From: Terrabacter sp. Root181
GTDB lineage: Bacteria; Actinomycetota; Actinomycetes; Actinomycetales; Dermatophilaceae
NCBI RefSeq assembly: GCF_001428505.1
Contig: NZ_LMHU01000008.1
Span: 248,001-312,000, forward strand
Reading direction: 5' to 3'
DNA length: 64,000 bases
Within the stretch, counting starts at the first letter, position 1. The number at the start of each line of letters is the position of its first letter. A program made the translations under genes and the position numbers. This document shows positions 38,045 through 49,901 of the stretch, in pieces. Under the pieces are notes generated by a model. The model saw only the letters and a list, made by a program, of their open reading frames with translations, was not told the DNA's origin and ran no database searches.

Positions 38045-38120
38045 GCGCCGCTAGCTCAATTGGCAGAGCAAGTGACTCTTAATCACTGGGTTCGGGGTTC
38101 GAGTCCCTGGCGGCGCACCA
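38045..38120 (+). tRNA. tRNA-Lys (anticodon CTT), integration target
   Basis: Acceptor GCGCCGC pairs with GCGGCGC, D stem GCTC/GAGC, anticodon stem AGTGA/TCACT with loop CTCTTAA, T arm CGGGGTTCGAGTCCCTG, encoded CCA. This is the only complete copy; its 3' part is duplicated at 40791 and 44941. Confidence 0.97.
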
Positions 38121-38178
38121 GATATGCAGGTCAAGAGCCCGGCCGTTGCGGCCGGGCTCTTCTGCTGTCCACGAAACC
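38083..38178 (+). repeat. att-type direct repeat, copy A (inside the intact tRNA-Lys)
   Basis: Runs from the tRNA-Lys anticodon stem through CCA and the terminator to an ACGAAACC end. By eye it differs from copy B (40791-40886) at two of 96 positions and from copy C (44941-45026) at three of 86. Confidence 0.92.
38133..38161 (+). terminator. Terminator of tRNA-Lys
   Basis: 12-bp stem AAGAGCCCGGCC with GGCCGGGCTCTT, 5-base loop, followed by a short pyrimidine run. It is copied in both downstream att repeats. Confidence 0.85.
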
Positions 38179-38256
38179 GGCCACTTTTGACTCGGGAGGG
38201 TCGGAGGTGAGGGCTCCTTCGAGTGCCGCGGCGGCCGCCCCGCTCTTGGCACCTCG
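38164..38256 (-). pseudogene. Remnant of a tyrosine integrase C-terminus (copy A)
   Basis: Minus-strand codons read RGAKSGAAAAALEGALTSD and continue to the tRNA terminator. This lines up with the tail after the catalytic Tyr in the copy B remnant (RGAKGGAAAAELQGAV). Upstream of 38256 the resemblance stops, so the catalytic part has been deleted. Confidence 0.6.
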
Positions 38257-38401
38257 GCACGGACCGAACGAGCGTCCTTTCCCGCGATGCCAGAACGGCT
38301 TGGTGATCTTCTAACCCCCAAGCCCGCCCCACACGTCTTGACTGGCCGCCTGGGGTGCCATCACGCATCACTGGACCTGGCCCTCAATGAGCGCACCAGT
38401 C

Positions 38402-38566
38402 CTAGATCGCTGTGACTGTGGCGTCGCGAAGCGCACTACGCAGCTCGTCGGCCCAGAGCGCAAGGCGGAGTTGAGTTCCGTAACCCGAGAGCGCGGCCTG
38501 ATGGACTTCCAGCCCAGCGACGCTGGTGGTCCACCCGGCTGCGGTGCGCGAGTACGGGCCGGCCAC
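38402..38566 (-). CDS. Possible 54-residue protein after the sialidase-like gene
   Basis: GTG at 38566 begins 2 bases beyond the sialidase-like stop and gives an uninterrupted frame with good actinobacterial codon use: AGPYSRTAAGWTTSVAGLE, then HQAALSGYGTQL, ending at TAG. It could be translated by coupling or be the head of a truncated gene. No ribosome site of its own and no recognised family. Confidence 0.3.
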   Translation of the reverse strand: MAGPYSRTAAGWTTSVAGLEVHQAALSGYGTQLRLALWADELRSALRDATVTAI

Positions 38567-38567
38567 C

Positions 38568-40358
38568 TCATCCGGTTGTGGCGCTGAAGATGTCGTTGTT
38601 GCCGAAACTTGCCGGGCAGTCGCCCAAGGGCCACGGTGCCGGAAGCGTCACCTGTGCAGCGTCCGACGACTGCTGGCGCCAGGTGTCGAGCGCAGGGCAG
38701 TCCATGGCGCGGCGGGTGTCGGTCCAGACTCCGGCACCATAGGTGCGCGTGGCGATGGCGTACACGTAGTCGCCGAGGAACTCGTTGTAGAGGATCCTGC
38801 CCTGCGAGGTACCGCGTGCATCGCCGAGCGGGCCGGAGTACTCCGTGACCCAGGCGCCGGGGGCGCCGCCCGCTCCGATCGCGGCAGCCTGCAGCACGCC
38901 GTGCTCGGGCCGGGGATCGGCCGTGGTCGCCTGGAATGGCTGCGTGAACGCCTGGGACACCACGTAGACCCGAGTGCCGTCCGGGCTGATGGCGGGTGCG
39001 GCATACGTGGGGATGTCTCCGGCGGGGGAGATCGCGGTCGGCGGGCTGAACGAGGCTGCGCCGTTGGTCGAGTACGCGAGCATGACCTTCTCGTGGTCAG
39101 GGCCGAGCGCTCCGTCGACCCAGGAGTCGACGATCTCGTTCGTGGCATCCGCGCCCGTCGGGGCCCCGTTGGCAATGTCCACGCTCGGCATCGCGGCGAG
39201 GTCGGTGCGTGCGCCCGCGACGCCATCCACGATGCAACGACCGGTCACCGGGTCGGTGTGGAAGCACGGATCGGTGATCGCGACCACGTCCTTCGGCTGA
39301 CGCCAGGTCTGGCCGCCGTCGAGGGACGTGATCACCGCGTGGAAGCCGGCCAGGCTGGTGCCGCCGAAGTGCGTGAAGAAGGCATACACGACACCGTGGC
39401 TGTCGGTCCGCACCGTGCACCCGTCGTACGCGCCCTGCTTGGCATTGGCGACCGCAGGCGCAACCTGGTGTTGTTTCCAGCTCACCCCGCCGTCGCGGGA
39501 GGTCGAGACCATCGGCTTGAGCGGGAAGGAGTTGCCTCCGCTCAGACTGTGGAAATCGGAGTAGCAGACGTACACGTTGCCGAAGAACGGGCTGGACTCG
39601 GCGTTGTCCGCCCAGATCTGCTCCTTGTCCAAGCCCGAGCTGAACGCCGCCTGGGGCGCGGCGAAGTACGGCCGCGACCAGTTGGCCTGGTTCCCGACCC
39701 GGTCCGCAGTCACGTTGTCGATGTGTGAGACGGTGACCGCGGTGAAGCCGTTCTGGCCGGAGTTCCCAGCGCGCATCACGGTGTCGGTGAGATTCGTGGC
39801 GAGACTGGAGAAGTAGAGCCGGTCGCCGTTGGCCCAGGAGAAGCCGTCAGCACCTGGGGCCGGCCCGAAGGACACCCCGGTGTCGCTTCGCGAGCGCAAG
39901 CCGTTCTCGTAGTAGTTGGGAACGGTGTGGATCGGCCCGACGTGCGGGACGCACGGTTCCTGGACCGGACTGCAGTCCGCCGCCGTCAGCCCCGAGTACG
40001 TCGGCTGAATCCAGCTGTGGCCGCGGTCGAACGAGAAATGCACCGCAGACAGGCCGACGCCCAGGTTGAACGTGCCGAGCGGGAACGAGCACGCGGCATG
40101 GTCGGTGGACGCCTGGCGTGAGCACGGCTGCATGTCCACCAGGTCGTTGGAGCCGGCGGCCAGCACGTCCGGCCGGGCCGCGCTGACCGCCAAGGACGGC
40201 TCGTTGGACGCGTTCTGGGGATGGTTCGACGAGGGGCTCCCCACGCTCACGAGAGCGTCGACCGTAGGTGCGGGCTGCGCCGCTGAGGCCCCTAGGGCTC
40301 CCAGGGCACCCAGTCCGAGTGCAGCGGTGAAAACCAGACAGCGTCGCAAGAGGCGCAT
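38568..40358 (-). CDS. Secreted BNR-repeat (exo-alpha-sialidase-like) protein
   Basis: 596 residues. A clear signal peptide (RRCLVFTAALGLGALGALG, cleavage near ASA-AQ) precedes a beta-propeller-like body. Asp-box motifs S/T-x-D-x-G-x-x-W occur at about residue 108 (SFDRGHSW), 288 (TSRDGGVSW) and 345 (SLDGGQTW). Six or more Cys residues may form disulfides. No sialidase Arg triad can be pinned down, so enzymatic activity is uncertain; adhesion or glycan binding are alternatives. AAGGAG lies 6 bases before the ATG. It is the only sizeable gene in the first island interval, between att copies A and B. Confidence 0.8.
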   Translation of the reverse strand: MRLLRRCLVFTAALGLGALGALGASAAQPAPTVDALVSVGSPSSNHPQNASNEPSLAVSAARPDVLAAGSNDLVDMQPCSRQASTDHAACSFPLGTFNLGVGLSAVHFSFDRGHSWIQPTYSGLTAADCSPVQEPCVPHVGPIHTVPNYYENGLRSRSDTGVSFGPAPGADGFSWANGDRLYFSSLATNLTDTVMRAGNSGQNGFTAVTVSHIDNVTADRVGNQANWSRPYFAAPQAAFSSGLDKEQIWADNAESSPFFGNVYVCYSDFHSLSGGNSFPLKPMVSTSRDGGVSWKQHQVAPAVANAKQGAYDGCTVRTDSHGVVYAFFTHFGGTSLAGFHAVITSLDGGQTWRQPKDVVAITDPCFHTDPVTGRCIVDGVAGARTDLAAMPSVDIANGAPTGADATNEIVDSWVDGALGPDHEKVMLAYSTNGAASFSPPTAISPAGDIPTYAAPAISPDGTRVYVVSQAFTQPFQATTADPRPEHGVLQAAAIGAGGAPGAWVTEYSGPLGDARGTSQGRILYNEFLGDYVYAIATRTYGAGVWTDTRRAMDCPALDTWRQQSSDAAQVTLPAPWPLGDCPASFGNNDIFSATTG

Positions 40359-40790
40359 AGCGGACTCCTTACGCGCGGCCAGGTCCGGGCAAACAACGGG
40401 TTCGCCCCGGGGTAGGCCTGTGCCGTGACAAAACTTCAGACTACGCCCGACCGCAAGAATGCAGCCAGCAGCCGGTCACGCTCCGCCTGCGAGACCAACG
40501 CAACGTCCCGCCGGATCCATCACCAGTCGTCATTCTCCGTGCTCCTGCGTCACAGAACATTAGAGCGGTCCTCGAAGAGTCAGAGGCGGCTGGGGCACAG
40601 GAATACGGTCGTACGACAGGTCCGGGAAGTGTCCGGACACCTCCTAGCTAGGGAGACGCGAAACCAGCCACTTTTGGACGGGAACCAAGCGGTGGCGACG
40701 AGACAGAGCGAGCACGTCGGGATCGCATCCCTGCAGGTCAGAGGCGCGAAGAGGCGTCGACGCGATGGGACGCGCAAGAGGCGCCGAAAC

Positions 40791-40886
40791 TCACTGGGTT
40801 CGGGGTTCGAGTCCCTGGCGGCGCACCAGATATGCAGGTCAAGAGCCCGGCCCTTGCGGCCGGGCTCTTCTGTTGTCCACGAAACC
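40791..40886 (+). repeat. att-type direct repeat, copy B
   Basis: Partial tRNA-Lys from the anticodon stem onward plus terminator, two mismatches to copy A by eye. The 5' half of the tRNA is missing, so it is not a functional tRNA but the scar of integration. Confidence 0.92.
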
Positions 40887-41115
40887 CCCCACTTTGATCA
40901 GACGTGTCCGTGCCGACGGCGCCCTGCAGTTCAGCGGCGGCCGCCCCGCCCTTGGCACCTCGGCCCATCTAGACGTCTATGGTCAAAGACGGCCGGGCAT
41001 GGCCGAGCTGGTCGGCGACCTGGGTGGCCCTCAAACCTGCCTCGTCGAGGATCGTAGCGTTGGTCTTTCGGAAGGACCGACGTGATCCAGGCCAAGGCGT
41101 CCGCGTCAACCCGCT
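40880..41115 (-). pseudogene. Decayed tyrosine integrase C-terminal domain (copy B)
   Basis: Minus-strand reading gives SFRKTNATILDEAGLRATQV, then ADQLGHARPSLTIDV, a TAG stop at 40969-40971, then MGRGAKGGAAAAELQGAV. This is the end of an actinobacterial phage-type integrase: the HSFRKT box, the LGH box and the DVYMGR box that holds the nucleophile. The stop replaces exactly the catalytic Tyr codon. A frameshift precedes SFRKT (the preceding block reads RVDADALAWITS in another frame). Confidence 0.85.
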
Positions 41116-41523
41116 TGGGCGCCTCCTAAGCGAGCAGCACGATGTCGTTCTTGGCAGCCTTCGATACGCGGCAGAGGTGCGCCATCGCCGCTGCGTGCTG
41201 CGGCTCTAGTCGAATCCTGCTCGACTCGATGAGCTCGACCGGCGTCTTGGGCCGGTCGAGCGCCTGAGCCACGTCCTTTCGCGAAGCAGATGACTCACTT
41301 GCGCTTCACACAGGAGCTGACGCAGAGGTCGCCGACGTCCTCCACCCCACGCTCATGGCCGTGAGCCGCCTTCAGCGCCGCACGCTCGCGGTCGTCGGTG
41401 AACGGCTGCTCGCGATGGTGGGGGCATCCGCCTGAGTCAGGCTCGCGCCTCGCGTCGTGGCCCGGGGACGACCGAAGGGCCGGCGAGCACTCCCGCCGGC
41501 CCTTCGAGCTCCACACCTACGAG

Positions 41524-42162
41524 TCAGTCCTGGGACCGGTACCGGACCGTGTCGGCGGCGTCGGACGCGCTGCCGCGCACCTCATCGACCGCCTGCTGAC
41601 CATCCTGCTTGACGTCGGCAGCCGCGCTACGAGCGGACTCCCTGACCGCTTCCGCAGCCTCCTGGGCCGGCTCCTTCAGGTGGTCGGCGGACTCGCTCGC
41701 CACGGTCTTGGCCACGTTCTGCACCTCGTCGATGACGGGAGCCGCGCGGTCCTTGACGTCCTGCGAGAGTTCCCGCTCCTTCTCCGACGCGGGCAGGAGC
41801 GAGCCGAGGAGCCATCCGGCCCCGAGCGCGATCATCCCAGCCGCCAGCGGGTTTCCGCGCGCCCGGCGCTTGAGCGAGTCGCTCGCCTGGGCGGCAGAGT
41901 CACCGGCCCCGTGGGCGATCTGCGAGGTCTTGTCACCGGCGTCGGACGCCGTGCCCATGACCCGGTCGCGGACCGATGCTGCCTGGTCCTTGACCTTGTC
42001 CGCCTGGCGGTGCGCCAGGTGGCTGGGGCTCACCGACTCGCCGAGGGCGTTGACGTCACGGCTCAACCCCTCGCGGGTCCGCTCGATGTCCGCGCGGATC
42101 GCGTCCGGGTCGTTCGTCGTCGTGGTGGTCGATGTGTTCACGGTCGGGTCGTTCATGGTCAT
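41524..42162 (-). CDS. DUF3618-domain membrane-associated protein
   Basis: 212 residues. The N-terminal DUF3618 block is IRADIERTREGLSRDVNALGE. One hydrophobic segment follows (NPLAAGMIALGAGWLLGSLL), then a long amphipathic helical tail rich in Ala, Glu, Asp and Lys. It probably lies along the membrane in envelope stress. The ATG overlaps the holin-X stop (ATGA) and follows GAGGAA. Last gene of a coupled three-gene operon in the second island interval. Another DUF3618 gene lies at 49650-49901. Confidence 0.8.
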   Translation of the reverse strand: MTMNDPTVNTSTTTTTNDPDAIRADIERTREGLSRDVNALGESVSPSHLAHRQADKVKDQAASVRDRVMGTASDAGDKTSQIAHGAGDSAAQASDSLKRRARGNPLAAGMIALGAGWLLGSLLPASEKERELSQDVKDRAAPVIDEVQNVAKTVASESADHLKEPAQEAAEAVRESARSAAADVKQDGQQAVDEVRGSASDAADTVRYRSQD

Positions 42163-42632
42163 CGCGCTTCCTCGTTTCCCATCAGCGCATCGGGGACCCG
42201 CTTGGCGGTCTCCGTCGTGCGCGGCATTCCCTGGATCTGTCTGGTTGTCCGTCGGCCGACCATCGCGAAGATCGCGGCGACGATCCCCCAGACGGCCATG
42301 ACGACGATGGCAGCCCACCCTCGGCTCTCCATGGCGCTGGAGAGCCACTCCCATACGGCGAGGGAGAGGAACAGGAGCGTCATCCACGCGGCGAGCGCCG
42401 CGGCGCCGAACTGTCCGGCGGCCTTACCGGCCCGTGTCGCCGACTCGCGAGCCTCCGCCTTGGCGAGCTCGACTTCCTGACGCAGCAAGGTCGAGAGGCC
42501 CGCGCTGATGTCGCCGACGAGCTCACCGAGCGACGCGCGCTCTGCCTTGTCGTGGGCTCCTTCGCCGACTGGGGGCACCTCGGCGTATGCCGTCGCCTCA
42601 GGCCCGTGGGCCGCGTCGGGCCACGTGCTCAT
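42159..42632 (-). CDS. Phage holin-X family protein (actinobacterial holin superfamily III)
   Basis: 157 residues. The motif LGELVGDISAGLSTLLRQEVELAKAEA is split over residues 35-62 and is the hallmark of the family, followed by two membrane segments (AALAAWMTLLFLSLAVWEWL and AIVVMAVWGIVAAIFAM). Despite the name most chromosomal members are not phage lysis proteins; they accompany DUF3618 proteins as here. The ATG shares a base with the upstream stop (TGATG). Confidence 0.85.
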   Translation of the reverse strand: MSTWPDAAHGPEATAYAEVPPVGEGAHDKAERASLGELVGDISAGLSTLLRQEVELAKAEARESATRAGKAAGQFGAAALAAWMTLLFLSLAVWEWLSSAMESRGWAAIVVMAVWGIVAAIFAMVGRRTTRQIQGMPRTTETAKRVPDALMGNEEAR

Positions 42633-43444
42633 CAGCGGACCCCGCCATAGCCCTCGGTGCCCGGGTCGGCCTGGACGGCGGCTGTCGAGCCGACTGACGG
42701 CGTGACGGCGTGGGTCTCGCTGTCGCGGATCCCGACGGCATACGGGGCGGCGTCATCGGACGGGGTACCCATCGCTGCGGTGGGGGTGGGAACCGACGCG
42801 TGCGTACCGGATCCGGGGCGACCGTTGCCCCCGCCGGTGGCCGAGCCTGAGCCCGTGGCACCTGCGGAGCCCGACTCACCGGTCAGCCCGCGAGTCATCC
42901 GTCCGCCGAGCACGCCCAGCACTGCGGCGCCGAGGAGGAAGGTGCCGGGACGACGTCGGGCGAACGAGCGCAGCTCGTCGACCATGTCGCCGGGCTGTCG
43001 GTCGGACAGCCAGTCCGCGGCGGAGTGAGCACGGTCGGAGGCCTGCTGCGCCAGCTCTCCGGCAATGCCCTGCTTGTCGGTGCTCGACGCCATCTGCTTG
43101 AGCTCGTCGGCGATCGAGCGGAGTCCGCCGGCTGCGCGCTCACCCTGGGACGACGCTTGGCCGTCGAGCTCGGAGCGGACCTGGTCGAAGAGCTGGCGCA
43201 GCTGCGTGGTGACCTCGGACGTGACGTCCTTGACGCCGCCGGCAGCGGTCTCGGCCACGTGACGACCGCTCTGGGCTGTGTCGGAGACCACGGACTTCGC
43301 CTCGTCTCCGACGACCGCGGTCGTGCTGTCGTCGGCGTGCTGGGGCGTCAGGTCGCCGCTGGTGCCGAGGTCGGCACCAGAGGCGTAGGTGGAGGTTCCG
43401 GCGACGTCGACGGGCGTGGCCGTGTCATACGGTCGTTCGGTCAT
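42632..43444 (-). CDS. Amphipathic-helix protein with one membrane segment
   Basis: 270 residues. Residues 40-150 have apolipoprotein-like repeats of Ala, Gln, Ser and charged residues (TQLRQLFDQVRSELDGQ), then a Gly/Leu segment (FLLGAAVLGVLGGRM) and a Gly/Ser/Thr-rich tail. Similar proteins stand in front of holin-X/DUF3618 genes in actinobacteria; the function is unknown. First gene of the operon, with GAAGGGAA before the ATG. The 290 bases upstream to 43735 hold the promoter but no gene. Confidence 0.7.
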   Translation of the reverse strand: MTERPYDTATPVDVAGTSTYASGADLGTSGDLTPQHADDSTTAVVGDEAKSVVSDTAQSGRHVAETAAGGVKDVTSEVTTQLRQLFDQVRSELDGQASSQGERAAGGLRSIADELKQMASSTDKQGIAGELAQQASDRAHSAADWLSDRQPGDMVDELRSFARRRPGTFLLGAAVLGVLGGRMTRGLTGESGSAGATGSGSATGGGNGRPGSGTHASVPTPTAAMGTPSDDAAPYAVGIRDSETHAVTPSVGSTAAVQADPGTEGYGGVR

Positions 43445-43734
43445 GGGTTCTTCCCTTCGGTGGCCGCACGACGGGACCGGCCAGCTTCTCGAGCCTCCAC
43501 ATCGCGCGGTTGTTGCACTGAAGGAATACCCAAACCCTTTGCAACTCAGGCCGATTCGGCCAAAAAGATTGGGATCTGCTGGAGCGGGTATGTTGTACGC
43601 CCCCCGGGTCCGTCCCCTCCGGCTGTCCTCTCAGGCCACTCCGCACGCGATGGGCGCCTCCCACGACGCTCACCGACTCACCCTGGGTTCACCTCGGGGT
43701 TCGGGCAGGCGAGCCCGATGGGTACTTCAAGAGC

Positions 43735-43968
43735 ATGGAACCGGTCCCGGAGACGCGGCAAGCCCTCGAGGGACTCGGCCAGTACGGCGACTCAGCCTTG
43801 CAGGACGACCTGACGGACATCGCTGCCCCGGGGATCGTGGCGTTCAGCCTTGGCCTCGTTCGCGAAGGTGTCGCCTTCACCTCTGTCTGGGTACGTGACA
43901 AGCAGCAGCATCCACGCGCTGTCCCTGCTGAGCAAAGGGGTCATCTGCATGACGAAAGACCTGAGTAG
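43735..43968 (+). pseudogene. N-terminal fragment of a GAF-type sensor protein
   Basis: 77 residues. The first 52 (ALEGLGQYGDSALQDDLTDI, then GIVAFSLGLVREGVAFTSVW) resemble the start of actinobacterial GAF/ANTAR sensors. After VRDKQQ the sequence turns into an unrelated tail and stops, so the gene is truncated by deletion or frameshift. The next gene starts inside it in another frame. Confidence 0.5.
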
Positions 43969-44158
43969 CGGCGAGAACCGTAAGAACCTGAAGAAGTCAT
44001 CCTTCGCGTTGCCGGAGCAGGAGAAGTACCCGATCCCCGACCTTGAGCATGCGCGGAATGCCTTGGCGCGCGTCGCACAGCATGGCTCCGCCGCCGAACA
44101 GAAGAAGGTCCGTGCGGCCGTGGAGAAGAAGTACCCGAGCCTGAAGAAGGACGACTGA
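43949..44158 (+). CDS. Small Lys-rich protein (DUF6582-like)
   Basis: 69 residues. LPEQEKYPIPDLEHARNALA and a Lys-rich end (KVRAAVEKKYPSLKKDD) resemble the small DUF6582-type proteins of actinobacteria and phages, whose function is unknown. AAAGGGG lies 9 bases before the ATG. It is highly charged and lower in GC than its neighbours, as expected for island cargo. The open frame upstream to 43850 has no support. Confidence 0.65.
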   Translation: MTKDLSSGENRKNLKKSSFALPEQEKYPIPDLEHARNALARVAQHGSAAEQKKVRAAVEKKYPSLKKDD

Positions 44159-44366
44159 AGCACCTGGCTCGGCGACTCTCGTCGGAGCGGATCGGCTCCG
44201 CCGACTCGACTTCTCTCGTCCGTCCTCAACGACACCACACCCATTTCCGCGATCCGCTCGTAGGAGCGATGCGTTGCGCACGGTGCGTCATGACGCCGCC
44301 TGTTCGGCCCCAGGCGTGTTCTGGGCGACGCGCGAACGGGTGGAACCGTCGTTGCCGTGCCCTGCG

Positions 44367-44678
44367 TCAGGCTGTCGAAAGGGCATCCTGATCTGGGTGC
44401 CCGACCCTCCAGATGGTCACGACAGGTTGACCTCCAAGGCTGGCGGTCATGTCTCTCATGTCGCCGGCCGCGTCCCGCTCGCCGGCTAGCTCGACGTGTC
44501 GGTCAGCAACGAAGTCGCGCTTCTGAGCCGCCCACTGACGTTCAACGTCGGGTAATTGCGCAGCCATTCGAATGCCCCTCTTCATGGCCCAATCCCACGA
44601 CAGCTCTATGCCGATGGTGTCGCCTGACGGCCACATCATGACGTCCTGGTCGATGCACCACACACGACTCTCAACCAA
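44367..44678 (-). CDS. Hypothetical protein, probably a truncated or decayed gene
   Basis: 103 residues if the TTG at 44678 is used; the frame is open only a little further up, with no ATG or GTG in good position. The text WPSGDTIGIELSWDWAMKRG, then LPDVERQWAAQKRDFVADRH, looks protein-like, and the end LGGQPVVTIWRVG shares a short match with debris at 35622-35807. No family recognised. Low confidence because of the weak start and its position in a decayed island part. Confidence 0.35.
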   Translation of the reverse strand: MVESRVWCIDQDVMMWPSGDTIGIELSWDWAMKRGIRMAAQLPDVERQWAAQKRDFVADRHVELAGERDAAGDMRDMTASLGGQPVVTIWRVGHPDQDALSTA

Positions 44679-44940
44679 GGACCACAGATCAGCGAGTGGA
44701 CGTCGCTTCGGGCGTTACAGCTGGGCGGTGACCATCAATCCGCGGTCGAGGAGCCTGCTACCAGTGCCGATCCAGCAGTGCGGAACAGGATGCATGGTTG
44801 GGCCGGTGGCCGCGCCGACGTTTTGGACGGGAACCAAGCGGTGGCCACGAGACAGACTGAGAACGTTGGGACGGCATACCTTCAGGTCAGAGGCGTGGAG
44901 AGACGTCGACGCGATGCGAAGCGCAAAGGGCGCCGAACCG

Positions 44941-45026
44941 ACTGGGTTCGGGGTTCGAGTCCCTGACGGCGCACCAGATACGCACGTCAAGAGCCCGGCC
45001 GTTGCGGCCGGGCTCTTCTGCTGTCC
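44941..45026 (+). repeat. att-type direct repeat, copy C
   Basis: Partial tRNA-Lys 3' end plus terminator, three mismatches to copy A over 86 bases by eye, one of them inside the tRNA part. Marks the right boundary of the composite island. Confidence 0.9.
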
Positions 45027-45029
45027 CCC

Positions 45030-45160
45030 AGCTGTTACTCGGGAGGGTCAGACGTGTGGCCCCTTTGAGCGCCGCGGCTGCCGCTCCGCCCCGTGGCCCC
45101 GGCCCAGGTAGACGTCCATCGTCAGCGATGGACGCGCCCGTCCGGTCTGGTCGGCGGGCG
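45030..45160 (-). pseudogene. Decayed tyrosine integrase C-terminus (copy C)
   Basis: Minus-strand codons read SPADQTGRARPSLTMDVYLG, then RGHGAER before the frame is lost. This aligns with copy B (VADQLGHARPSLTIDV-stop-MGRG). The Tyr is kept here but the LGH His has become Arg. Upstream similarity is weak and broken by indels. Confidence 0.7.
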
Positions 45161-45447
45161 ACGAACGTTGCTGCGGTCGCGGAACCCGCCGAGCACGCAC
45201 TCGAGCTCGGTCTGTCGACCGCCGAACGCGCCCAGCTCCCGGACCTGCACCGCGGCGAGGGACTGTGGCGTGCCGGTCAGAGGGCCTTCGTCGTACGACG
45301 CACAGCCATCGAGTACAAGCCGGAACTATGTGACACCAGCTCGCGCATGACGATCGGGCCGCGCGGGGGTAGGTGCTACTGGCCTCACGAACACTTGACA
45401 TGTCAACCAGACCCGCCGATAACCGGGCACACCAGCGCCACGTCTGG

Positions 45448-45668
45448 CTACTCGGACCTTCGGGCCACGAGGTAGAGCGGCAAGAACAGCACCAGCGCCA
45501 AGAGGCACAGGGCCGCCCAAACTTCCGGCCGGTCAACCGTGAGGCCGCCCAGGTCGCGACGACGGGTCGATCCCGCTCGATCCGGGTCCGGGAATCCTCG
45601 AGCACCCACAGGCGGGCGGCCCCGACGACCAAGACCATCAGGAAGACACTGACCACGGATGGACTCAT
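45448..45668 (-). pseudogene. Frameshifted two-segment membrane protein
   Basis: From ATG 45668 the frame reads SPSVVSVFLMVLVVGAARLW and RTRIERDRPVVAT. The sensible continuation, DRPEVWAALCLLALVLFL to PLYLVARRSE-stop at 45448, is in another frame. The total of 221 bases is not a multiple of three. It is therefore a small two-helix membrane protein with one frameshift around 45550, or a sequencing error. It follows gntP in the same direction. Confidence 0.6.
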
Positions 45669-45722
45669 GCCTGTCACTCGGTCGCAGGACGAGCATCCGC
45701 CGGCTGGCGGCACATCCTTCCG

Positions 45723-47330
45723 TCAGGTGACGATGACGCTGGCCACCATCACGAGGGCAAAGCCGAACACCGAGATGACGGTCTCCATCACGGACCACGA
45801 CTTGATCGTCTCGCCCACGGTCAGACCGAAGTACTCCTTGACGAGCCAGAACCCCGCGTCGTTGACGTGCGAGAAGAACAGCGAGCCGCAGCCGATCGCA
45901 AGGACGAGCAGCGCGAGGTGGTTGGCCGAGAGGGTGGGCGCCAGCGGCGCGACGATGCCGGCCGCGGTGATGGTGGCGACCGTGGCCGACCCCGTACCCA
46001 GTCGGATGAGCACAGCGACGAGCCATCCGAGCAGCAGCACCGAGATGCTGACGCCCTCTGCCCAGTCCTTGATGACGTTGCCGACCCCGGCGTCGATCAG
46101 CGTCTGCTTGAACCCGCCACCGGCGGCGACAATGAGGATGATGCTCGCGATGGCCGGCAGCGCGGACCCGACCGAGTCGCTGACCTGGCTCTTGTTCAAG
46201 CCCGACCCGAGCCCCAGGGCGATGTAGCAGTAGAGCACCGCGATGAGCAGGGCGACGATCGGGGTCCCGATGAAGTCCATGGTCGTGCGGACCCCCGTCT
46301 CCTCGTCGGTGACGAGCAGCTTGGTGATCGCGTCGACGAGCATCAGGACAACCGGCAGGGTGATGCCGATGATGGCCGTCGCGAAGCCTACCCGCTTGCG
46401 TCCGGGCGCCAAGGGCTCCTCGAAGGAGGCCAGCCCGCGGTCGGCCCCGGCACCCTCACCGGTATCGCCGGTCCGAGCGCCAGCCGGCTCAGCACGGCCG
46501 TCGTCGCCGGGGGGCCCCCCGACCGCGTCCTCGCGGCCCGTGGCACGAGCACCGGCGGGCACCGCCGGACGGGTCACCGTCGCCGTGCCGCCGGACGCCG
46601 AGCCCAACAGCACCAGGTCATCCGCGGACTTGGGCACCCACTGGTCGACGAAACGCGCGAGCAGGGGTCCGGCCACCACGACGGTCGGTATCGCGATGAT
46701 GATGCCGAAGATCAACGTGCGCCCGAGGTCCGCGCTGAGCAGACCGATCGCGGTCAGCGGGCCGGGGTGCGGCGGCACCAACCCGTGCAGCACCGAGAGC
46801 CCTGCGAGCGCAGGGATGCCGACCTTCATCAACGACAACCCCGTCCGTTGGGCCACGAGGACGACCACCGGGACGAGCAGCACCACGCCCACCTCGAAGA
46901 ACAACGGCAACCCGAGAATGGCAGCGATGGCTGCCATCACCCACGGCAGGCGACCTGGCCCGACGCGTCCGACCATCGTCCCGACGATCCGGTTGGCGCC
47001 GCCGGAGTCCTCGAGCAGCTTGCCGATCATCGCCCCCAGCGCGATGAGGATGCCCACTGCCCCGGCCGTCGTGCCGAACCCGGCCACAAAGCTCTTGACC
47101 GTTTCGCCGGGCGGCATCGTCGCCACCGCTCCGAGAACCGCAGAGCCGAGCATCAGTGACAGGAACGGGTGGACCTTGGCCCACGTGATGAGCACGACGA
47201 CGGCAAGGATGCCGAGGATGCACGCCGCGACCAGCTGCGCGTTCCCGGCATACACCGGGGGTGCATCGGCGGCCGGCAGTCCGCCAGGAACGGCCGTGGA
47301 CAGGACGGCGGGAAGTGCGATCAGAGACAT
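45723..47330 (-). CDS. gntP: GntP-family gluconate:proton symporter
   Basis: 535 residues with 12-14 membrane segments. Family motifs: HPFLSLMLGSAVLG, GFGTTAGAVGILIALGAMIG, GLPLFFEVGVVLL, LHGLVPPHPGPLTAIG and near the end SLFFSHVNDAGFWLVKEYFG. It is about 80 residues longer than usual because of a hydrophilic, Gly/Ala/Glu-rich cytoplasmic loop at about residues 235-305. Coupled with gntK (TGATG), so substrate gluconate is likely. Confidence 0.92.
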   Translation of the reverse strand: MSLIALPAVLSTAVPGGLPAADAPPVYAGNAQLVAACILGILAVVVLITWAKVHPFLSLMLGSAVLGAVATMPPGETVKSFVAGFGTTAGAVGILIALGAMIGKLLEDSGGANRIVGTMVGRVGPGRLPWVMAAIAAILGLPLFFEVGVVLLVPVVVLVAQRTGLSLMKVGIPALAGLSVLHGLVPPHPGPLTAIGLLSADLGRTLIFGIIIAIPTVVVAGPLLARFVDQWVPKSADDLVLLGSASGGTATVTRPAVPAGARATGREDAVGGPPGDDGRAEPAGARTGDTGEGAGADRGLASFEEPLAPGRKRVGFATAIIGITLPVVLMLVDAITKLLVTDEETGVRTTMDFIGTPIVALLIAVLYCYIALGLGSGLNKSQVSDSVGSALPAIASIILIVAAGGGFKQTLIDAGVGNVIKDWAEGVSISVLLLGWLVAVLIRLGTGSATVATITAAGIVAPLAPTLSANHLALLVLAIGCGSLFFSHVNDAGFWLVKEYFGLTVGETIKSWSVMETVISVFGFALVMVASVIVT

Positions 47331-47869
47331 CAGGCGTGCTCCTTACGGTGGCCGAGGGCAGCAAGCGCCCGGTCCAGGACCTGAGCGGCGCTCCCCTCGT
47401 TGCTGATGGTCACGCCGGGCTCGTCGGCTCCGAGCGGCTCGAGCGTGGCCAGCTGGCTGGGCAGCAGGGACGGTGGCATGTAGTGGCCCGGACGGTGCTC
47501 CATCCGGTCGCGGATGACATCGGACTCAGCCGTCACGTGCAGGAACCGGACGTGCGGTCTGCCTTCGCGGAGCAGGTCGCGGTAGACACGGCGCAACGCC
47601 GAACACGTCACGACCGCCGACTCACCGCGGCTCTCCTTGCGCGAGATCCACGCCCCGATCGCCTCGAGCCACGGCCAACGGTCCTCGTCCGTGAGCGGCG
47701 TGCCGCTGCGCATCTTCGCGACGTTGGCCTCGGGGTGAAAGGCGTCACCCTCGGCGAACTCCCACCCAAGGACAGTCGACAGGCCTTTCGCGACCGTCGA
47801 CTTCCCGCTCCCGGACACTCCCATGACGACGACCACGTCCGGGTCGGGACCGCTTTGGCTGTCCAGCAT
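47330..47869 (-). CDS. gntK: Gluconokinase
   Basis: 179 residues. Walker A VVMGVSGSGKSTVA, then LGWEFAEGDAFHPEANVAKM, the lid-type CSALRRVYRDLLR, and HYMPPSLLPSQLATLEPL, all typical of GntK. It phosphorylates gluconate to 6-phosphogluconate for the pentose phosphate pathway. Its ATG opens the gntK-gntP pair. Confidence 0.95.
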   Translation of the reverse strand: MLDSQSGPDPDVVVVMGVSGSGKSTVAKGLSTVLGWEFAEGDAFHPEANVAKMRSGTPLTDEDRWPWLEAIGAWISRKESRGESAVVTCSALRRVYRDLLREGRPHVRFLHVTAESDVIRDRMEHRPGHYMPPSLLPSQLATLEPLGADEPGVTISNEGSAAQVLDRALAALGHRKEHA

Positions 47870-48461
47870 TCTCCGAACGTAGCGCGCCGTCGCCTTCCGG
47901 AGGTCTTTGGGCAGCAGGCATTTACGCAGGTGCGGCGGCGACCATTCGAAGCGGGGATCTCAACTTGTGGGGCTGCGTCTCCACACCAAGACTGATGGCA
48001 GCCAGCGCCACGAGTGGCCCCGGCGGATTCCGTCGCACCCTGTCAGTGTCCAGCAGGGCGCGCCCCGTAAAGGGATTTCCTGTCACCTGTGTTGGCCGGC
48101 ACGGTCGCCGATGGCGATCCACCCCCGGCGGCCACGACGAGCCGAGAAGGTATGGCGTGTCGCCACCGGCCTCATTGGTGCGTGCGCCGGTCGGAGCCAT
48201 CGGCCGGCGCGTTGTAGAGACTCGCTCACCTCTCGCCAGGACCTCCGAGGTTGTCGTCGAAGGGGGAGTCGCGATCCGTCCACTTCCACCGTTCCGGCAC
48301 TGCGCGGTGTGGCCTTGCCCGCCGAGCGCCGCCTGGGCGAACCGGACGGCACACCCGTCCGGATTCGCGTATCAGGCTGACAGCGCCGCGCCTCCCTTGG
48401 ACCATGGGACGTACCACCCCGTGACGCGGGTGACCGCGTCGCCGGCCCGAGGGGAGATGCG
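47870..48461. other. Intergenic region between gntK and the amidase-like gene
   Basis: 592 bases without a convincing open frame. The upstream part should hold the gntK promoter (read leftwards) and the far right a GAGGGGAG ribosome site. A regulator gene, common beside gntK, is absent. I see no repeat or RNA. Confidence 0.5.
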
Positions 48462-49649: not shown

Positions 49650-49901
49650 TCAGCGCCGGCGGCGGAGCAGGCCGATGGCGACCACGACGACGACCGCTGC
49701 CGCGACGACGGCACCGATCCGCTCGATGCGCAGGTCACCGTCCTCGGTGTGCGTGGCGGCGGCGAGGCGCAGCCTGAGCCCCTGCACCTGGCGTTGGGCG
49801 ATGACCTGCGGCTGGGCGCGGTAGGCCAGCTCGTTGACGGTGCCCTCGAGGCGCGCGCGGGCGGCCTGGATGTCCTGCTCGATGCGTACGGTCTCGCTCA
49901 T
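49650..49901 (-). CDS. DUF3618-family protein
   Basis: 83 residues. The N-terminal block IEQDIQAARARLEGTVNELA is the DUF3618 signature, followed by a single membrane segment near the end (GAVVAAAVVVVVAIGLL) and RRRR. Single-pass membrane protein of unknown role; GAAAGGAA precedes the ATG. Located between bcp and the lone groES-like gene, all on the same strand. Confidence 0.85.
   Translation of the reverse strand: MSETVRIEQDIQAARARLEGTVNELAYRAQPQVIAQRQVQGLRLRLAAATHTEDGDLRIERIGAVVAAAVVVVVAIGLLRRRR

Follow-up and report, generated by a model that had tools for sequence, protein, structure and literature searches.

Terrabacter sp. Root181 carries, at a tRNA-Lys (CTT) gene, a 10.2-kb island (38121-48361) in which the 3′ part of that tRNA and a terminator recur as a direct repeat. 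Positions refer to the window, a stretch of 64,000 nucleotides from contig 8 of the 4.94-Mb Root181 genome (G000), and the features of the island are listed in Table 1. The repeat starts at 38083, 40791 and 44939/44941. A sequence-only reading of the window had described three direct copies differing by two and three mismatches, and alignment bears this out: over 86 nt (from 38085), copies 2 and 3 match copy 1 at 84/86 and 83/86 positions, respectively, and each other at 81/86. The two further copies were recovered in a genome-wide search with E values of 1.3e-43 and 1.4e-34, and no fourth copy of similar length was found in the whole genome. Copy 1 alone belongs to a complete tRNA, which is the sole complete tRNA-Lys in the window.

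Three attachment-site copies and three integrase relics

On the 3′ side of every copy the same terminator is followed by the tail of a tyrosine integrase gene. Copies 2 and 3 are each preceded on the 5′ side by a further repeat (117 nt, 86% identity), corresponding to the right end of an element; it is also present 5′ of the second attachment-site (att) copy in Terrabacter sp. MAHUQ-38 (G001; 75% over 88 nt). Copies 2 and 3 have the layout right arm, core, left end of the next element, and as junctions between two elements they are stronger evidence for a tandem arrangement than the repeats alone. In three further genomes, G202, G170 and G095, the other att copy has a core of ∼38-41 bp followed by a different hairpin (hairpins identified by eye), and in G170 it lies on a separate contig, beside sequence matching the right flank in the window. 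Since copies 2 and 3 run into the left ends of elements and these other copies do not, the island is a true tandem as opposed to one element with two ends.

The relics were compared with P0001, the intact 495-aa integrase encoded at the same tRNA in G001. The sequence-only reading had placed an integrase tail on the minus strand after each copy, and all three match P0001, the third weakly. Relic 1 is 80% identical to residues 455-495 of P0001, and a genome search gave a match to residues 454-495 at 79% (E 1e-11). Relic 2 matches residues 404-486 at 63% (E 8e-24) and residues 308-415 at 49% (E 1e-20), with pieces in different frames and four in-frame stops, one of which (TAG) occupies the codon of the catalytic tyrosine. 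For relic 3, identity to residues 437-456 is 85% and to residues 456-495 is 37% (E 3e-7, small-database search); a match to residues 305-316 is 10/12 as protein (E 0.7), and 33 nt there are 91% identical to the G001 integrase gene (E 3e-5). Relic 3 was not recovered at E 1e-3 in a whole-genome search. With respect to catalytic motifs, relic 2 keeps the context of FRKT and LGH, relic 3 keeps the tyrosine block, and relic 1 lies past the tyrosine.

An 18-nt putative arm-type site is present on both sides of element 1. No support for paired arm sites was obtained in element 2 (11/60 shuffles scored as high), in G001 (23/60), or in G202 (31/60), G170 (53/60) and G095 (55/60), and a 9-mer in G001 does occupy the matching arm position. 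Because the putative site is kept on both of its sides, the ends of element 1 may be recognisable by a related integrase.

Table 1. Features of the tRNA-Lys island of Terrabacter sp. Root181 (window coordinates).
Feature	Position	Strand	Basis or remark
tRNA-Lys (CTT)	38045..38120	+	ARAGORN; the core of the attachment site is formed by its 3′ part
att copy 1, attL of element 1	38083..38187	+	Repeat and genome-wide search
Element-borne terminator within att copy 1	38133-38161	+	Native terminator of sister genomes absent at copy 1
Integrase relic 1, element 1	38134..38256	-	P0001 residues 455-495
Putative arm-type site, element 1 left arm	38172..38189	+	17/18 identical to 40659-40676; 0/60 shuffles reach the score
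Element 1 cargo, 596-aa open reading frame (ORF)	38568..40358	-	Weak BNR_2 similarity, below family cut-off
Right arm of element 1	40656..40790	+	Holds putative arm-type site 40659-40676
att copy 2, element 1/element 2 junction	40791..40895	+	Repeat and genome-wide search
Integrase relic 2, element 2	40842..41407	-	Fragments of P0001 residues ∼308-495 with frameshifts and four stops; includes the helix-turn-helix insert region
Element 2 cargo, DUF3618 protein	41524..42156	-	YtxH-like similarity below cut-off
Element 2 cargo, Phage_holin_3_6 family protein	42159..42632	-	Pfam
Element 2 cargo, 270-aa protein	42632..43444	-	No Pfam match
Element 2 cargo, DUF6582 protein	43955..44158	+	Pfam
Right arm of element 2	44821..44937	+	86% to right arm of element 1
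att copy 3, element 2/element 3 junction	44939..45043	+	Repeat and genome-wide search; start 44939/44941
Integrase relic 3, element 3	44990..45193	-	P0001 residues 437-456, 456-495 and 305-316 (last weak as protein)
Conjugation (type IV secretion) ATPase-like C-terminus remnant, element 3	45196..45345	+	Similarity to an ORF at G000:C11
Element 3 cargo, GntP family permease	45723..47330	-	Pfam
Element 3 cargo, AAA_33 kinase	47330..47869	-	Pfam; read as gluconokinase (gntK)
Shared chromosome, resuming to the right of the island	48362..48461	+	Preceded by neither an attR core nor a native terminator

Occupancy of the tRNA-Lys site in related genomes

The locus was compared in eight other Terrabacter genomes, one per species. 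Empty sites, which the sequence-only reading had expected in related strains, were found in G003, G007 and G008, where a native terminator and, directly after it, chromosome corresponding to window 48354-48362 come after the tRNA-Lys. In G005 and G006, the tRNA and a terminator of the same type are followed by sequence that in the window begins at 49650. To the right of the island, 49650-49901 contains another DUF3618 gene, which is small and distinct from the cargo gene at 41524; it lies in the sequence that comes directly after tRNA-Lys in G005 and G006. The three-copy array, which as a conserved ancestral arrangement would have spoken against accretion, was not found in any of the eight (G002, 74% complete and with no tRNA-Lys match, is uninformative).

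In G004, an element-type terminator and a 15-residue integrase scar (93%, E 4e-4) stand at the tRNA, and the native terminator lies ∼4 kb downstream, near the right boundary, where no att core was found. This displacement of the native terminator indicates insertion and not loss elsewhere. An integrase relic also stands at this tRNA-Lys in Humibacillus xanthopallidus. The element-borne terminator (window 38133-38161) occupies the place of the native one and persists together with the integrase C-terminus as a scar in both G004 and Humibacillus.

At the right end of the Root181 island, a search for a fourth att copy or for the native terminator near 48354 gave neither. In both G000 and G001, the right boundary showed no outer attR and no native terminator. 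The three intervals of the island have a G+C content of 67.5-68.8%, versus 71.3-71.4% in two flanking stretches.

If the island were ancestral, the empty sister genomes would have lost it by deletion, and the homologous element ends present at the same site in G000 and G001 could be taken in this sense. However, five sister genomes carry one native terminator type directly at the tRNA, the native terminator of G004 stands behind an element-type terminator, and in blastn comparisons the G000 island has no match to the insert of either G001 or G004 outside its ends. Ancestral presence followed by loss is therefore highly improbable.

The site is occupied on a larger scale in G001, where 152.7 kb (G001:C13:182956-335792) separate the tRNA-Lys from the shared right flank. 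A second att copy lies 130 kb from the tRNA and is followed by a second unit with another decayed integrase (E 1e-8). The intact P0001 gene (L031:12220-13707) and an excisionase-like gene adjoin the tRNA; the former is convergent with the tRNA, and its last codons lie inside the terminator. A Pfam scan of 9 of the 113 listed ORFs of this element included an 880-aa AAA_10 (VirB4-like) protein and TrwB-, DnaG-, RecC- and RecD-like ORFs. Because of its VirB4-, DnaG-, RecC- and RecD-like ORFs, the ∼130-kb element is probably an integrative and conjugative element (ICE). P0001-like integrase sequence was found downstream of tRNA-Lys at 4 of 30 loci from 58 genomes (G000, G001, G004 and G029), and a search of the family added intact integrases in G202 and G170, a frameshifted one in G161 and a truncated one in G095.

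RecA or the integrase could have duplicated one element in place, with the copies then gaining different cargo, and such an origin would suit the higher identity of core and terminator between copies (94-98%) relative to that of the flanks (75-86%). Against this, apart from the arms, no long repeat is common to the intervals in the 20 largest of 30 direct-repeat families, the first two integrase tails have 80% identity over 59 nt, and in G001 the site is occupied by a different long element next to one that is older and decayed. We regard duplication in place as unlikely.

Probable accretion and decay at tRNA-Lys

Taken together, the data very probably reflect serial accretion of at least three related integrative elements at one tRNA-Lys(CTT) gene, followed by decay to att-bounded units that lack integrases, i.e., cis-mobilizable elements (CIMEs) in tandem. 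The relics, junctions and empty sites support what the sequence-only reading had proposed, namely the accretion of related elements with loss of their integrases. The elements would have entered the 3′ end of the tRNA successively, each using a P0001-type tyrosine integrase and each bringing its own tRNA 3′ part and terminator, so that the tRNA would have remained whole and the native terminator would have been displaced. Each newcomer would have re-formed the tRNA and pushed older elements outwards, leaving element 3 outermost. Internal deletions, frameshifts and stops would then have removed integrase and transfer genes, and the remaining att-bounded cargo units would at present be immobile; a further deletion would have taken the outermost attR and the native terminator. 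Element 3 would be the oldest, because it is outermost and because copy 3 carries an acceptor-stem change that would mispair with the 5′ half of the tRNA. A conjugative origin is suggested by a transfer-gene remnant, present in element 3 only.

The array might instead have arrived in a single event, as one composite element in which the tandem was already formed. Transfers of CIME-ICE tandems are reported in PMC5704250, and against such an origin the same tandem was not found in the eight other Terrabacter genomes (G002 being incomplete); we give it little credence.

Several points weigh against serial accretion. Copies 1 and 3 have an identical terminator, though element 3 is otherwise the most decayed, and this identity could equally stem from exchange between copies, from recent decay or from independent arrival. 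The order of insertion is drawn from position and the one acceptor-stem change in copy 3. Relic 3 is a short tail and the weakest of the three, the island has no intact integrase, and none of its scanned ORFs was recognised as an excisionase. Elements 1 and 2 contain no recognised transfer gene and may equally derive from ICEs, integrative and mobilizable elements or prophages, and the arm pair is significant in element 1 alone, without significance in the five others tested.

Accretion of this kind has precedents. CIMEs are defined, and a three-step accretion scheme is set out, in PMC5704250. Like the CIME tandems and ICE-CIME accretions of ICESt1-related islands in Streptococcus thermophilus, the Terrabacter array consists of att-bounded units without integration or transfer genes stacked at one target; unlike them, it occurs in another phylum, targets the 3′ end of a tRNA-Lys gene, includes a terminator in the repeat, and has an outermost unit without attR. 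Elements 1 and 2 have attL and attR (core, right arm and left end), and no attR was found for element 3, so that two of the three units fit the CIME definition. Of the integration and transfer genes, integrase relics alone were found, with no transfer gene in the Pfam-scanned cargo. Descent from an ICE or an integrative and mobilizable element may be indicated by the ATPase-like remnant, confined to element 3, and by the G001 element with its VirB4/TrwB-like ORFs. A closer taxonomic parallel, described in PMC3218068, is provided by Fean5518 and Fean5534 of Frankia sp. EAN1pec, two actinomycete integrative and conjugative elements (AICEs) in tandem in a tRNA-Lys gene; tandem elements are also described there at tRNA-Arg in Streptomyces. 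Both the Frankia pair and the Terrabacter array are actinobacterial tandems in tRNA-Lys with closely related integrases. The Frankia AICEs, however, are two in number and encode integrases, whereas the Terrabacter array has three units, none with an intact integrase.

With respect to cargo, the sequence-only reading had counted two intervals. Both are present, and a third, with the ATPase-like remnant and gntP-gntK, carries the island beyond 45160 to 48361. The 596-aa ORF of element 1 is 49% identical to a paralogue at G000:C9 and was matched at E 1e-20 in 19 of 149 family genomes including its own, the best outside match being 50% identical. A paralogous version of the DUF3618/Phage_holin_3_6/270-aa triad of element 2 lies at G000:C7, and G003 contains a relative at 83%. 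Within the element 3 remnant, 45196-45297 is 84% identical to the 3′ end of a 515-aa ORF at G000:C11, which by eye resembles a G001 ORF with marginal TrwB_AAD_bind and AAA_10 matches, both below cut-off. The surrounding region (G000:C11:15000-34000, L142) holds this conjugation-ATPase-like ORF and others that resemble the G001 element by eye. No transfer gene was found among the Pfam-scanned cargo ORFs, small ORFs having been scanned in part. Neither an FtsK-type translocase nor a Rep protein, which are features of actinobacterial AICEs, was found in the larger island ORFs that were scanned.

The AAA_33 kinase gene is presumably gntK, from its place beside gntP. The gntP-gntK versions of G000 (window 45719-47921), G003 and G008 are 86-92% alike and lie in three different genomic places. 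Among the gnt loci of G008, G003, G006, G004, G001 and G007, compared over at most 1.5 kb of flank each, only those of G004 and G001 share most of their flanks. The G008 operon sits between sequences that are 6.6 kb apart on G000:C1, where the operon is absent. The idea that the operon had moved into the island from a single ancestral locus was rejected, as the G003 location is different again and flanks are mostly unshared. We read gntP-gntK as an operon found at varying places and not as a demonstrated relocation. With one genome compared per species, and gntP-gntK placed differently among Terrabacter genomes, the fixed cargo of the sequence-only reading is at most conjectural.

An integrase lineage with a helix-turn-helix insert

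P0001 contains an insert of ∼83 aa, an XRE-type helix-turn-helix (HTH) domain, between its catalytic boxes and just before the HxxR motif. Pfam HTH_31 matches residues 332-394, between the Phage_integrase match and the HxxR motif, where models of DNA-binding proteins from NCBIfam and PHROGs also match. The element 2 relic carries the insert region as well (window 41078-41407). Among 30 integrases, taken as the best-matching loci from 186 family genomes and not as all integrases of those genomes, five have the insert (P0001, G202, G170, G161 and G095), all at tRNA-Lys(CTT). The 25 without it lie at tRNA-Thr (16), tRNA-Lys(TTT) (5), tRNA-Arg (1) and tRNA-Pro (1), with no tRNA found for two. A perfect link between the insert and tRNA-Lys(CTT) was rejected: in G029, the relic at that tRNA passes from residue 313 to residue 411 over 44 nt and has no insert.

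The three complete integrases at tRNA-Lys(CTT) group together (100/99) in a tree built from 28 integrases. When the tree is read by target tRNA (L103-L129, L052, L053), Lys(TTT) and Lys(CTT) each form one group and Thr(TGT) mostly does so (3 changes). The insert is lacking in nine aligned viral relatives (9 of 10 loci found). Twelve of 396 genomes across the phylum gave matches, and both sides of the insert join were matched solely by the relic in the window; the known bearers of the insert are absent from these matches and were probably not drawn, so that the rarity of the insert is bounded only loosely. At no single place did a plasmid record (51 matched) or phage record (615 matched) cover 80% of P0001. 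A comparison with solved structures at E 0.01 gave four distinct sequences, which each match part of the recombinase only, and the best match to the insert was an XRE-family protein (E 0.098).

IntTn916-type integrases of actinobacterial ICEs and phages (pSAM2 cluster) have an arm-binding domain, and many insert at tRNA genes, according to PMC8138268. Our guess is that P0001 belongs to this type, from which the HTH insert just before HxxR sets its lineage apart. An HTH inserted in a tyrosine integrase was not found in a limited search of open-access literature, which included parts of PMC8138268 and PMC3218068, and the HTH-bearing lineage might be the part of this work that a specialist does not know.

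Accretion and decay at tRNA genes is an established process, of which the Terrabacter array is a clear further example. Within one genus, an empty site, an intact element, a tandem, a scar and a terminator swap together provide an unusually readable record of turnover. We consider it possible, although doubtful, that an integrase with an HTH in its catalytic domain both recombines at tRNA-Lys(CTT) and senses or regulates its own att arms, and that the integrase-less units of the array can still be moved by the integrase of a newcomer. If true, the tRNA would serve as a shelf of cargo cassettes. Within a well-studied family of enzymes, the HTH-in-integrase lineage itself represents a small variant that is open to testing.

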